Shown here in pieces: positions 1,723 to 5,237 of a stretch of DNA of 64,000 nt. The DNA is from Nonomuraea gerenzanensis (GTDB lineage: Bacteria > Actinomycetota > Actinomycetes > Streptosporangiales > Streptosporangiaceae): contig NZ_CP084058.1 in assembly GCF_020215645.1 (NCBI RefSeq), positions 248,001 through 312,000 of the forward strand, written 5' to 3'. A program made the position numbers and the translations under genes. Numbering within the stretch: position 1 is the stretch's first letter; the number at the start of each line of letters is the position of its first letter. The notes under the pieces are model-generated. The model was not told the origin of the DNA, ran no database searches, and saw only the letters and a program-made list of their open reading frames with translations.

Positions 1723-2559
1723 TCATCCGCTAAAGGAAGACCTCGTGACGCGCTCATACGCTTCTAGGTATCGCTGCCGCGTGCGCTCCACCACATGGTC
1801 GGGGAGCCGAGGTGGTGGGTTTCCTGAGGCTTTGTCCCATCCGGATTCGGGCGATAGCAACCAATCGCGTACATATTGCTTGTCAAAAGAGGGCTGTGCC
1901 CTTCCCGGCTGCCATTCGTCGGCCGGCCAGAACCGCGAGGAGTCGGGCGTCAGCACCTCGTCGCCGAGGGTCAGCACGCCGTCGCTGTCCCAGCCCAGCT
2001 CGATCTTGGTGTCGGCCAGGATGATGCCCCGCTCACGGGCGATCTGCGCGCCGCGCGTGTAGACGGCCAGCGTGATCCGCCGCAGCTCCGCCGCCAGCTC
2101 GGCGCCGACCTCCGCCTCGACCTGCTCGTAGGAGATCGGCTCGTCGTGCTGCCCCATCGGCGCCTTGGTGGACGGCGTGAAGATCGGCTCTGGCAGCCGG
2201 GAGCCGTCCTCCAGCCCCTCGGGCAGCAGCACGCCGGACACCGTGCCGCCGGCGCGGTACTCGTTCAGCCCGCCCCCGGCCAGGTAGCCCCTGGCCACGC
2301 ACTCGACCTGGACCATCTTCAGCGGCTTGCACACCACGCTGCGCGCGTCGTCGCCGGGCGCCACCACGTGGTTGGGCACGACGTCCTTGAGCTGGTCGAA
2401 CCACCACAGCGACATCTGCGTGAGGATGGCCCCCTTGTCGGGGATGTCGGGCTCCAACACGTAGTCGAAGGCCGACAGGCGGTCGGAGGCGACCATCAGC
2501 AGCAGGCCCTCGTCGGTCTCGTACAGGTCGCGGACCTTGCCGGAGTGCAGGTGCTTCAT
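1723..2559 (-). CDS. purC: Phosphoribosylaminoimidazole-succinocarboxamide synthase
   Basis: This 278-aa SAICAR synthetase joins CAIR and aspartate using ATP in de novo purine synthesis. The N-terminus HSGKVRDLYE is the glycine-rich ATP-binding strand-loop. SDRLSAFDYVLEPDIPDKG is the family signature, and VECVARGYLAGGG matches the second signature. Length is typical of the monofunctional bacterial enzyme. Its ATG (2557-2559) overlaps the TGA of purD by 4 nt, so the two genes are very probably co-transcribed and translationally coupled, purD first. The other purine gene here, purA, lies 4 kb away and is separate. Confidence 0.95.
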   Translation of the reverse strand: MKHLHSGKVRDLYETDEGLLLMVASDRLSAFDYVLEPDIPDKGAILTQMSLWWFDQLKDVVPNHVVAPGDDARSVVCKPLKMVQVECVARGYLAGGGLNEYRAGGTVSGVLLPEGLEDGSRLPEPIFTPSTKAPMGQHDEPISYEQVEAEVGAELAAELRRITLAVYTRGAQIARERGIILADTKIELGWDSDGVLTLGDEVLTPDSSRFWPADEWQPGRAQPSFDKQYVRDWLLSPESGWDKASGNPPPRLPDHVVERTRQRYLEAYERVTRSSFSG

Positions 2560-3779
2560 CGGGCGATGTCCGTCCGGTGGAAGGAGCCGCGCATCGTGAT
2601 CCGGCCGACGAGGTCGTAGGCCGCCCGGCGCGCGCTCTCCTGGTCGGGGCCGTGGCCGACGACGCTGAGCACCCGCCCGCCGTTGGAGACGAGGGTGTCG
2701 CCGTCCTGCGTCGTGCCGGCGTGCAGCACGTACGCGTCAGGCGTCGGCTCCAGCCCCGCGATCGCGTCGCCCTTGACCGGCGCCTCCGGATAGTGCTCCG
2801 CCGCGATCACCACGGTCACCGCGGAGCCGCCCTTGAACACCGGGTCGAGCCCCAGCTCACCGGTCGCGGACGCCATCAGCAGCCCGCCCAGCGGCGTCTC
2901 CAGCCGGTCGAGGATCACCTGCGCCTCCGGGTCGCCGAAGCGCGCGTTGAACTCGACGACCTTCGGACCCTTGGAGGTCAGCGCCAGCCCGACGTAGAGC
3001 ACCCCCTGGTAGGGCAGCCCGCGCCGCGACAGCTCGGCGATCGTCGGGTGCACGACCTCCCGCATGACCTGGTCGGTCAGCCCGTCGGGCGCCCAGGGCA
3101 GCGGCGTGTAGGCGCCCATGCCGCCGGTGTTGGGGCCCTCGTCGCCGTCGTAGGCCCGCTTGAAGTCCTGGGCGAGCTGCAGCGGCACCGCCGTGCTGCC
3201 GTCGCACAGCGCGAACAGCGACACCTCCGGCCCGTCGAGGTACTCCTCGATGACCACCCGCTCGCACGCCAGCGCGTGCGCGAGCGCCTGGGCCCTGTCG
3301 CCGGTGACGACCACGCCCTTGCCCGCGGCCAGCCCGTCGTCCTTGACCACGTACGGGGCCCCGAACTCGTCGAGCGCCGCCGCGGCCTCCGCCTCGGTGG
3401 TGCACGTGCGGGACCGCGCGGTGGGCACGTCGGCCGCCTGCATGATCTCCTTGGCGAACGCCTTGGAGCCCTCGATCATGGCCGCGTCCCTGGACGGCCC
3501 GAAGCAGGCGAAGCCGGCCTCGCGCACCGCGTCGCTCACCCCCGCCACGAGGGGTGCCTCGGGTCCGACCACCACGAGATCGACCCGCAGCCGCCCGGCC
3601 AGCGCGGCGACCTCCCCTGGGTCGAGCGGATCGACGGCGTGTACGGTCGCGACCTGCGCGATGCCAGGGTTGCCTGGCGCGCAGTGGAGCTCGCTGACCT
3701 GGGGATCGAGGCTGAGTGAACGGCACAGGGCGTGCTCACGCCCTCCGGAACCAATGACTAGAACGCGCACGCGGTCCAT
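2556..3779 (-). CDS. purD: Phosphoribosylamine-glycine ligase (GARS)
   Basis: This 407-aa ATP-grasp enzyme joins phosphoribosylamine and glycine with ATP, the second step of purine synthesis. The N-terminus VLVIGSGGREHAL is the diagnostic GARS motif. GPEAPLVAGVSD follows in the N domain. VKDDGLAAGKGVVV is the ATP-grasp lysine/glycine loop, and FNARFGDPEAQVIL is the C-terminal PurD signature. I chose ATG 3779 (MDRVRVLVIG). The frame is open upstream to 3827, but that extra segment is Pro/Gly-rich and not family-like. The GTG at the VRVLV position is an alternative. The stop overlaps the purC start (ATGA). Upstream is a 348-nt gap shared with divergent corA that contains a strong RNA-like structure. 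Confidence 0.93.
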   Translation of the reverse strand: MDRVRVLVIGSGGREHALCRSLSLDPQVSELHCAPGNPGIAQVATVHAVDPLDPGEVAALAGRLRVDLVVVGPEAPLVAGVSDAVREAGFACFGPSRDAAMIEGSKAFAKEIMQAADVPTARSRTCTTEAEAAAALDEFGAPYVVKDDGLAAGKGVVVTGDRAQALAHALACERVVIEEYLDGPEVSLFALCDGSTAVPLQLAQDFKRAYDGDEGPNTGGMGAYTPLPWAPDGLTDQVMREVVHPTIAELSRRGLPYQGVLYVGLALTSKGPKVVEFNARFGDPEAQVILDRLETPLGGLLMASATGELGLDPVFKGGSAVTVVIAAEHYPEAPVKGDAIAGLEPTPDAYVLHAGTTQDGDTLVSNGGRVLSVVGHGPDQESARRAAYDLVGRITMRGSFHRTDIAR

Positions 3780-3948
3780 TGTCGCAGGCCCGCCGCCTGG
3801 CCCAGGCTCAGGTCGCCAGGACACCAAGTGCCGGAATAGGCAAGGAACTTTGTGGAGTTCTACCTGAGCCGAGGCTCTCCTGACGAGTATCGTCGGATAG
3901 GTTCACCCGCCTGTGGTAACTTAGGGCGGCTTTATGGCGTCTCGTGTG

Positions 3949-4127
3949 ATTGGAGGTGGTCCGGGATGAATCCTGGTGATCCCAGCAGTACGTGCTTCCA
4001 CACGTACGGCCTGCGTACCCCCGACCACTCCAATTCGGCAGCCTGATCGTGCCTCCACGCCATCTGTGTTGATTGAGGTGACTTCATCGCGCGTGGAGCG
4101 TCCCTGGTCGGGCGGAAAGGGACTGCC
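3949..4127 (+). promoter_or_regulatory. Structured 5' leader candidate upstream of corA
   Basis: A 12-bp stem pairs 3949-3961 with 4023-4034 (ATTGGAGTGGTC complement, one bulged G). It encloses two further hairpins: GGGAT 3963-3967 with ATCCC 3979-3983, and GTACGTG 3988-3994 with CACGTAC 4001-4007. Outside the closing stem, CTCCACGC 4053-4060 pairs with GCGTGGAG 4091-4098. GTCCC 4100-4104 can pair with GGGAC 4119-4123, which would cover the corA ribosome site at 4114-4121. This has the layout of an aptamer plus a translation-control platform. It does not match the M-box consensus as I know it. The element is palindromic enough that a role on the other strand, 170 nt before purD, cannot be excluded. 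Apart from this element I see nothing convincing in 3780-3948. Confidence 0.55.
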
Positions 4128-5237
4128 ATGCGCTCGTCCACCCTTCTCCGTCGTATCAACCGTCACTCCGTTCCGTCACGCGTGCCGCACGCGCTGCCCA
4201 AGCCCGTACGCGAGGCCTGTGTGCCGCCGGTGGCGTCCATAGTCGAGTTCGGCGCCTACATCCAGGGCAAGAAGGTCGCCAGCCCTGGCATCGTCGAGGC
4301 ACTCGGCCTCGTCCGCGCGCACAACGAGAGCACCGACGGCGCCCGCGCGTTCGTCTGGGTGGGCCTGCACGAGCCGGCCGCGCCCGAGGTGGAGTGGCTG
4401 TCCGAGGTCTTCGGCCTGCACCCGCTGGCCGTCGAGGACGCCGTCAAGGCCCACCAGCGGCCCAAGGTCGAGCGGTACGGCGAGTCGCTGTTCATGGTGC
4501 TCAAGACCATCGCCTACCTCGACCACGACGAGCTGACCGCCACCAGCGAGATCATCGCCACCGGCGAGATCATGGTGTTCCTCGGCCCCGACTTCGTCGT
4601 CACGGTGCGCCACGGGGCGCACTGCTCGCTCGCGGGGGTCCGCGAGCGCCTGGAGGACAAGCCGAAGCTGATGAACCGCGGCCCGGCGGGCGTGCTGCAC
4701 GCCATCTCCGACCATGTGGTCGACCAGTACCTGCAGGTGGCCGACCTCATGCAGCTGGAGCTGGAGGAGGTCGAGGCGACGGTGTTCGCGGACGTCAGCT
4801 CCCGCGACATCAACCGGATCTACCAGCTCAAGCGCGAGATGCTGGAGATGAAGCGGGCGATCACGCCGCTGCAGTCGCCCATGGCCGCGCTGCCCCAGCG
4901 CCGCGTCATCCCCTCGGAGATGCGCGACTACTTCCGCGACGTCGGGGACCACCTGTCACGCGTGTGTGAGCAGGTCGAGTCCTCCAACGAGCTGTGCAGC
5001 TCGATCCTGCAGGCCGCGCTGGCCCGCTCGAACGCCCTCGCCAACGAGGACATGCGGAAGATCTCCTCCTGGGTGGCCATCCTGGCCGTGCCGACGATGA
5101 TCGCCGGGATCTACGGCATGAACTTCGACTTCATGCCGGAGACCAAGCAGGTCTGGGGCTATCCGGCGGTGCTGGCCGTGATGGTCACAGCCTGTGTGCT
5201 GCTGCACCGCGGCTTCCGCCGCAACGGCTGGCTCTAG
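4128..5237 (+). CDS. corA: CorA-family magnesium/cobalt transporter
   Basis: This 369-aa protein is a CorA-type divalent cation channel that forms a homopentamer in the cytoplasmic membrane. The cytosolic alpha/beta domain covers about residues 30-250, including HPLAVEDAVKAHQRPKVE, typical of CorA. A long stalk helix follows, with many charged and heptad residues around 195-310. Two C-terminal membrane helices carry the YGMNF selectivity signature (GMN) in the loop between them. The start is ATG 4128 with AAAGGGA six bases upstream. The first 35 residues (MRSSTLLRRINRH...) are a basic extension not needed for the family fold. It is divergent from purD and preceded by a structured leader. It ends against the convergent GDPD gene. 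Confidence 0.93.
   Translation: MRSSTLLRRINRHSVPSRVPHALPKPVREACVPPVASIVEFGAYIQGKKVASPGIVEALGLVRAHNESTDGARAFVWVGLHEPAAPEVEWLSEVFGLHPLAVEDAVKAHQRPKVERYGESLFMVLKTIAYLDHDELTATSEIIATGEIMVFLGPDFVVTVRHGAHCSLAGVRERLEDKPKLMNRGPAGVLHAISDHVVDQYLQVADLMQLELEEVEATVFADVSSRDINRIYQLKREMLEMKRAITPLQSPMAALPQRRVIPSEMRDYFRDVGDHLSRVCEQVESSNELCSSILQAALARSNALANEDMRKISSWVAILAVPTMIAGIYGMNFDFMPETKQVWGYPAVLAVMVTACVLLHRGFRRNGWL

Follow-up and report, generated by a model that had tools for sequence, protein, structure and literature searches.

To our knowledge, only enterobacteria are known to control corA through a leader peptide. In Escherichia coli and Salmonella, translation of the upstream open reading frame (uORF) corL lowers corA, with involvement of Rho (PMC11552253). 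The same work places enterobacterial corL in the first stem-loop of the leader, whose 3′ strand must be unclosed for the uORF to be translated (PMC11552253). Salmonella mgtL is described there as a short translated ORF with acidic and proline codons in front of a Mg2+ transporter gene (PMC11552253), and mgtQ, in a second study, exposes the ribosome site of mgtB, aided by acidic codons that destabilise the ribosome (PMC8092293). The pe20 M-box of Mycobacterium tuberculosis is a Mg2+-related leader with a conserved uORF2, whose peptide is described as specific to mycobacteria (PMC12810186). A reannotation of Streptomyces lividans gives eight leader peptides; none is for corA, and its authors examined amino-acid genes (PMC8079986). 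Among the literature matches listed, which cover few subscription papers and no preprints, there is no report of an actinobacterial corA leader peptide.

The locus considered here lies in a stretch of 64,000 nucleotides from Nonomuraea gerenzanensis (the window). It is probable, in our judgement, that corA in this window has a ribosome-controlled 5′ leader which encodes a conserved leader peptide of 26 codons. A device of this kind is already known; what would be new is its presence in another phylum, with a peptide core and fold of its own. The features are given below in window coordinates. A1 denotes 28 diverse Streptosporangiaceae leaders, with rows selected for GGAGGTG[AG]; a larger set holds 75 distinct Streptosporangiaceae sequences from 97 found, selected for the Shine-Dalgarno (SD) sequence, start codon and corA start and not for an open frame.

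2556-3779, minus strand: purD, divergent from corA, with the leader element between the two genes
3912..3922, plus strand: candidate extended -10 TGTGGTAACTT, promoter-like and conserved (GTG.TA..TT invariant or nearly so in A1)
3949..3965, plus strand: stem A, 5′ strand, containing the uORF SD (94.5% of cells paired, 75 sequences)
3952..3959, plus strand: uORF SD GGAGGTGG, the same in 27/28 A1 rows, GGAGGTGA in the remaining one (L045)
3966..4046, plus strand: putative uORF for the leader peptide MNPGDPSSTCFHTYGLRTPDHSNSAA, 26 codons and TGA (ATG at 3966, TGA at 4044-4046), the frame being open in relatives
3981..3992, plus strand: core codons CCC AGC AGT ACG (P-S-S-T), the AGT near-fixed across families
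3988..4007, plus strand: hairpin B (3988-3994/4001-4007), 92.2% of cells
4020..4034, plus strand: stem A, 3′ strand, formed by uORF codons 19-23 (evidence as for the 5′ strand)
4041..4048, plus strand: helix F, 5′ strand GCCTGATC, holding the uORF stop TGA 4044-4046 (RNAalifold)
4053..4060, plus strand: stem C, 5′ strand (86.4% of cells, 75 sequences)
4091..4098, plus strand: stem C, 3′ strand (evidence as for the 5′ strand)
4106..4113, plus strand: helix F, 3′ strand GGTCGGGC, 2 nt upstream of the corA SD (RNAalifold)
4116..4122, plus strand: corA SD AAAGGGA, its position read from the sequence
4128..5237, plus strand: corA, a CorA-like Mg2+ transporter of 369 aa (PF01544, E 1.1e-56)

The transcript is predicted to start a few bases 3′ of the candidate -10 at 3912..3922, which fits the TAnnnT given for the S. 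lividans -10 (PMC8079986). A promoter scan at the corA leader found no E. coli-type promoter. No terminator-like site of the intrinsic type was found in 3780-4300.

In layout the locus resembles enterobacterial corA/corL: a translatable uORF, judged from its sequence, stands before corA in the first stem-loop of a multi-stem leader. It differs in phylum, in having helix F around the uORF stop, and in that the modelled direction of control is opposite to that of corL. With mgtL and mgtQ it shares a short ORF with acidic and proline codons before a Mg2+ transporter gene, whereas the constant element in these actinomycete corA leaders is a P-x-S-T-like core with an AGT codon. The N-terminal acid and proline are conserved in Streptosporangiaceae and are not universal across families. 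It has in common with the pe20 M-box (RF00380) that a Mg2+-related leader of an actinobacterium carries a conserved uORF, but the M-box itself has no match in the window at the gathering threshold, in 3780-4300 up to E 10, or in the genome up to E 0.001. The genome search found matches in the Bacillus subtilis and Lactococcus lactis controls, and an M-box riboswitch was rejected. Actinobacterial leuL, trpL and ilvL are comparable as translated short leader ORFs that control the next gene (PMC8079986). Here, however, the gene is for a transporter and not for biosynthesis, no terminator was found and there is no single-amino-acid run. The traits of an amino-acid attenuator are not seen: the peptides of the named loci show no regulatory codon run.

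A sequence-only reading of this DNA had proposed an aptamer with an expression platform, closed by pairing of GTCCC 4100-4104 with GGGAC 4119-4123 over the corA ribosome site. Both sequences are present, but the lock is not conserved; its stem is paired in 68.0% of cells and its central pair 4102-4121 forms in 13/75 sequences. Other parts of that reading stand. The 12-bp stem 3949-3961/4023-4034 with one bulged G is present, and extends to 3963-3965/4020-4022; the hairpins inside it can be found in the sequence, and the separate 8-bp stem 4053-4060/4091-4098 is conserved as stem C. Upstream of corA lies a structured, conserved 5′ leader in which relatives show compensatory changes, and covariation in homologous corA upstream regions, which had been set as the test, was found. 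It is also correct that no known riboswitch matches, as no Rfam family was detected at gathering in the window or up to E 10 in 3780-4300; nor was any at gathering in 20 further loci, 16 of which carry the leader. The uORF, its SD and helix F are absent from that reading.

A conserved multi-helix RNA that lies upstream of a metal transporter gene and has no Rfam match could suggest a ligand- or metal-binding riboswitch. This is nevertheless very unlikely: the best-conserved positions are the SD, the start codon and the first uORF codons, the claimed platform stem pairs poorly in relatives, and the remaining fold varies in sequence and shape between families. The comparison with riboswitch traits covered the switch to the expression platform. 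An alternative pairing, switch E (4020-4026 with 4106-4112 replacing the uORF site), looked good at first, with 87.6% of cells paired in the 75 sequences. It was dropped because shuffles reach its percentage paired in 78/500 cases and its covariation score in 38/500, and helix F accounts better for the same 3′ strand. The corA leader does not look like a small-molecule riboswitch, and is most likely a leader-peptide device.

Evidence for the uORF comes from the frame and from the residues kept. The frame is open for at least 26 codons in 75/75 distinct Streptosporangiaceae sequences; the corresponding numbers for the other two frames are 14 and 7. Among 74 in-register uORFs Gly4 is found in all (GGT 62, GGC 12), as are Asp5, always encoded by GAT, and Thr9 (ACG 73, ACT 1); Pro6 is present in 73 (CCC 66, CCT 6, CCG 1) and replaced by Ser in one. 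Codons 2, 3 and 11 are variable. Length changes within the first dozen codons consist of whole codons (L054, L098 and L071). It should be pointed out that the third codon position is not more variable than the first (entropy 0.440 and 0.433, respectively), and therefore a constraint at the nucleotide level acts too. In the C-terminal half, seven leaders (L046, L052, L073, L079, L086, L091 and L096) carry indels whose length is not divisible by three. As the N-terminal residues are kept and the C-terminal frame is not, the sequences suggest that constraint acts on the peptide in the N-terminal part and chiefly on RNA pairing in the C-terminal part. The leader of N. sediminis (L073, uORF from 2846) has a frameshift after about codon 19 and retains the stem-A sequence and the N-terminal peptide; it is a natural separation of peptide from RNA constraints.

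RNAalifold on the A1 leaders gives stem A and the long-range helix F, which encloses stem C. Helix F is, from the alignments, the best-supported helix of the leader. Its pairs 4041-4047/4107-4113 form in 94.9% of A1 cells (n=28) with two-sided changes at 5/7, the eighth pair, 4048-4106, being left out of the counts. Pair 4046-4108 occurs as AT, GC and TA and is paired in 69/75 sequences; pair 4047-4107 occurs as TG, CG, GC and TA and is paired in 62/75. Stem C pairs in 79.0% of A1 cells, with two-sided changes at 2/8 pairs. Stem A pairs in 92.9% of A1 cells but shows a two-sided change at only 1/15 pairs; its support is mostly from one-sided changes that preserve pairing, because the SD side is fixed by function. 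The three helices together have 89.6% of cells paired in A1, compared with 32-48% for slid versions of the structure. Their covariation score is matched by 0/500 shuffles and the number of cells with two-sided change by 1/500, although related sequences can beat such shuffles without structure. Less remarkable are the number of pairs with two-sided change (29/500 shuffles) and of pair types (141/500). Single-sequence folding yields no significance on either strand (MFE -80.7 kcal/mol, z -1.07; 25/200 shuffles fold at least as well). In relatives that carry GCGCAC...GTGCGC, another hairpin, overlapping hairpin B, is possible within 3988-4015; the window sequence cannot form it well.

The placement of the uORF ribosome site in a 5′ stem, a corL-type trait, holds in Streptosporangiaceae and is uneven across families. 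In 31 representative leaders, pairing of the uORF SD with a downstream segment beats 95% of shuffles in 11 (mean z -1.11); among the leaders that fall short are several from Streptosporangiaceae and Actinomadura, and the best SD duplex of some leaders differs from the stem-A partner. In 15 Actinomadura leaders a uORF SD paired with a segment of the uORF is followed by a hairpin and then by the corA SD, and their consensus fold has two-sided changes at 0/60 predicted pairs. Outside the SD, start and codons, both the sequence and the shape of the fold differ from family to family.

The element would be expected to work as follows. The comparison of relatives supports a stem A that buries the uORF ribosome site and a helix F, with the uORF stop in its 5′ strand and its 3′ strand adjoining the corA SD, that encloses stem C. 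Loading of a ribosome at the uORF would probably precede the closing of stem A during transcription. Depending on whether this ribosome reaches the uORF stop, helix F would be opened and the corA ribosome site freed; in addition or instead, its reaching the stop may decide whether Rho can terminate in the leader. The condition sensed could be low Mg2+ or the ribosome stress that results from it, and the readout could be slowed or failed translation over the rare-codon D-P-x-S-T segment, both proposed from the gene context and the enterobacterial analogues. It is because corA is the downstream gene, and because of these analogues, that Mg2+ enters the model. We infer both Mg2+ sensing and the direction of corA control, and translation of the uORF in cells is putative, resting on its conservation in sequence.

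Accessibility was modelled with a parked ribosome in the 75 Streptosporangiaceae sequences. In free RNA the uORF SD is buried, with a modelled accessibility of 0.118. With a ribosome at the uORF stop the mean modelled corA SD accessibility rises from 0.195 to 0.417 (n=75), and the corA initiation region opens in 51/75; a ribosome at codons 5-10 opens it in 1/75. Since opening comes from a ribosome at the stop and not from one at codons 5-10, the model speaks for coupling in which the uORF is read to its end. For the window's own sequence it gives little opening (0.19 to 0.31 for the SD, 0.283 to 0.299 for the initiation region). For uORFs of 26-28 codons (n=45) the modelled initiation region goes from 0.246 to 0.400, and with longer uORFs (n=30) the opening nearly vanishes (0.295 to 0.314).

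These results also bear on constitutive translational coupling, where the uORF would only deliver ribosomes to corA and unfold helix F, sensing nothing. The stop codon inside helix F and the modelled opening by a ribosome at that stop are what such coupling would predict. But it leaves the conserved N-terminal peptide and the near-fixed rare AGT unexplained, in the window 81 nt separate the uORF stop from the corA start downstream, and little opening is modelled in relatives whose uORFs are longer. We consider it unlikely.

A sub-variant of the leader-peptide model holds that the Asp/Pro-containing N-terminus aborts ribosomes at low Mg2+, whereupon the leader refolds and corA is turned on; ribosome abortion of this sort has been proposed for Salmonella mgtL and mgtQ. 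The near-invariance of Asp5 and Pro6 in Streptosporangiaceae speaks for this, as does mgtQ, whose Asp2 and Glu5 are needed for its mgtB effect (PMC8092293). The acid and proline content is modest and not universal, however: Streptomyces peptides start with MSRSRPCST (L234) or MDRSRSCST (L233, L235), and a peptide of another family (f8), MTTSSSPCST, has no acidic residue. Moreover, modelled early stalling leaves the corA site closed, and the AGT codon and the next Thr are more constant than D/P. This sub-variant can be entertained, with more doubt than confidence.

The element had also been noted as one that, on the other strand, would precede purD. Counts were made in named corA loci, the best 80 of 580 relatives, with the uORF sought on the corA strand only. 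The nearness of purD, within 3 kb in 61 of these loci, would fit a DNA operator or a purD-side element. Nine of the 19 loci without purD within 3 kb nevertheless carry the leader before corA, which is thus independent of purD, and it is in the corA direction that both the reading frame and the RNA pairing are preserved. A purD-side function was rejected, and we regard an operator or purD-side element as extremely improbable.

Returning to the leader peptide, its distribution is broad. By the SD/start rule a uORF is present in 69 of the best 80 of 580 relatives, a 3-residue match (L134) being left out. In this set, whose closest members are Nonomuraea loci with 96% protein identity, the uORF is found in 45/46 Streptosporangiaceae, 15/15 Actinomadura, 0/2 Yinghuangia and 9/17 other actinomycete loci, i.e. 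Amycolatopsis, Pseudonocardia, three Saccharopolyspora, Saccharothrix, Actinosynnema, Lentzea and one labelled Rhodococcus rhodnii. The placing of named genera in families is our assumption. The sole Streptosporangiaceae miss, Rhizohabitans (L102), has no SD by the rule, and a motif scan finds the motif behind a start codon. A uORF is also present in 19/19 genomes with a corA match from a family (f15) that we take to be Streptomycetaceae-like, by protein resemblance; 13 have the exact pattern GAGGTGN(3-12)ATGN(6-27)GCAGTAC upstream of a corA, and the other six, found by reading the DNA, carry variants such as MDRSRPGSTTRSSGR. The exact pattern occurs at the corA leader in 17/25 genomes searched; 32 of its 49 matches lie elsewhere, against 20 for a backward control, and a few of these recur in two genomes. 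At the DNA level the window element has a single match in each of 54/54 genomes of the genus and a match in 52/120 genomes of the family, and none in the other 68.

In a class-wide sample of 60 corA-upstream stretches, where SD-preceded ORFs were inspected by eye, a uORF with the core was not seen in 54. Among them are further Streptomyces paralogues, this genome's second corA and a family (f4) which is presumably Mycobacterium-like, on the same grounds as above. The second corA paralogue (contig 1, 7318108) is 49% identical, and the rule used finds no SD-preceded short ORF upstream of it (L156); other Streptomyces corA paralogues among the loci read are likewise without the leader.

A core resembling P-[CSA]-S-T is common to most of the leader peptides, and the rare codon AGT is nearly fixed in it. 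Examples across families are MNPGDPSSTC, MSPGDPCSSP, MDRSRPCSTT, MSKDPHPAST, MSSSTDSALPCST and MSGTDSAPST; Pseudonocardia MPTAPGCSSC and Amycolatopsis MSSGDSPLPSKT fit more loosely, and the core Pro is replaced by Ser in some Streptomyces. The most constant peptide element is the AGT codon with the Thr that follows, and not D/P. The Ser codon is AGT in 72/74 Streptosporangiaceae and in all of the 15 + 8 cross-family leaders inspected; in 4/15 Actinomadura the position is GGT. In six genes of the window AGT accounts for 0/112 Ser codons and AAT for 0/43 Asn codons, and other T-ending codons are CCT 5/119, GAT 7/137 and GGT 18/224. Five of the eight codons after the uORF ATG are T-ending and rare or absent in these six genes, and therefore the start of the uORF is built from codons that those genes avoid.

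As the P-x-S-T-like core is common to Streptosporangiaceae, Actinomadura, Streptomycetaceae-like and Pseudonocardiaceae-type bacteria, a wider reading can be put forward, tentatively. The leader peptide might be an ancient actinobacterial nascent-peptide sensor, in which the core and its near-fixed rare AGU act as a novel sequence for arrest or abortion, through which the state of Mg2+ or of the ribosome is signalled to corA, with an origin independent of corL and mgtL. A conserved, differently built actinomycete counterpart would point to more than one origin of ribosome-read corA control, and leader-peptide control could explain the absence of an M-box from this genome. A short peptide with a near-fixed rare codon is directly testable in laboratory Streptomyces.

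Two minor observations may be added. The loop of stem C has a second SD-like stretch, GAGGTGA at 4075-4081, which by manual count is GAGGTGA in 15/28 A1 rows and GGGGTGA in 6/28. No well-spaced start codon follows it in the window, and it is possibly a standby site, a decoy or the SD of a GTG frame that overlaps the corA start. The other concerns the leader labelled Rhodococcus rhodnii NRRL B-16535 (L137, JOAA01000016.1). Its peptide, MSGTDSAPSTSSVPTGRVSFAR, and its leader are close to those of Actinosynnema sp. (L131, MSGTDSAPSTNSVPTGRVGLTS), so this record may be mislabelled.
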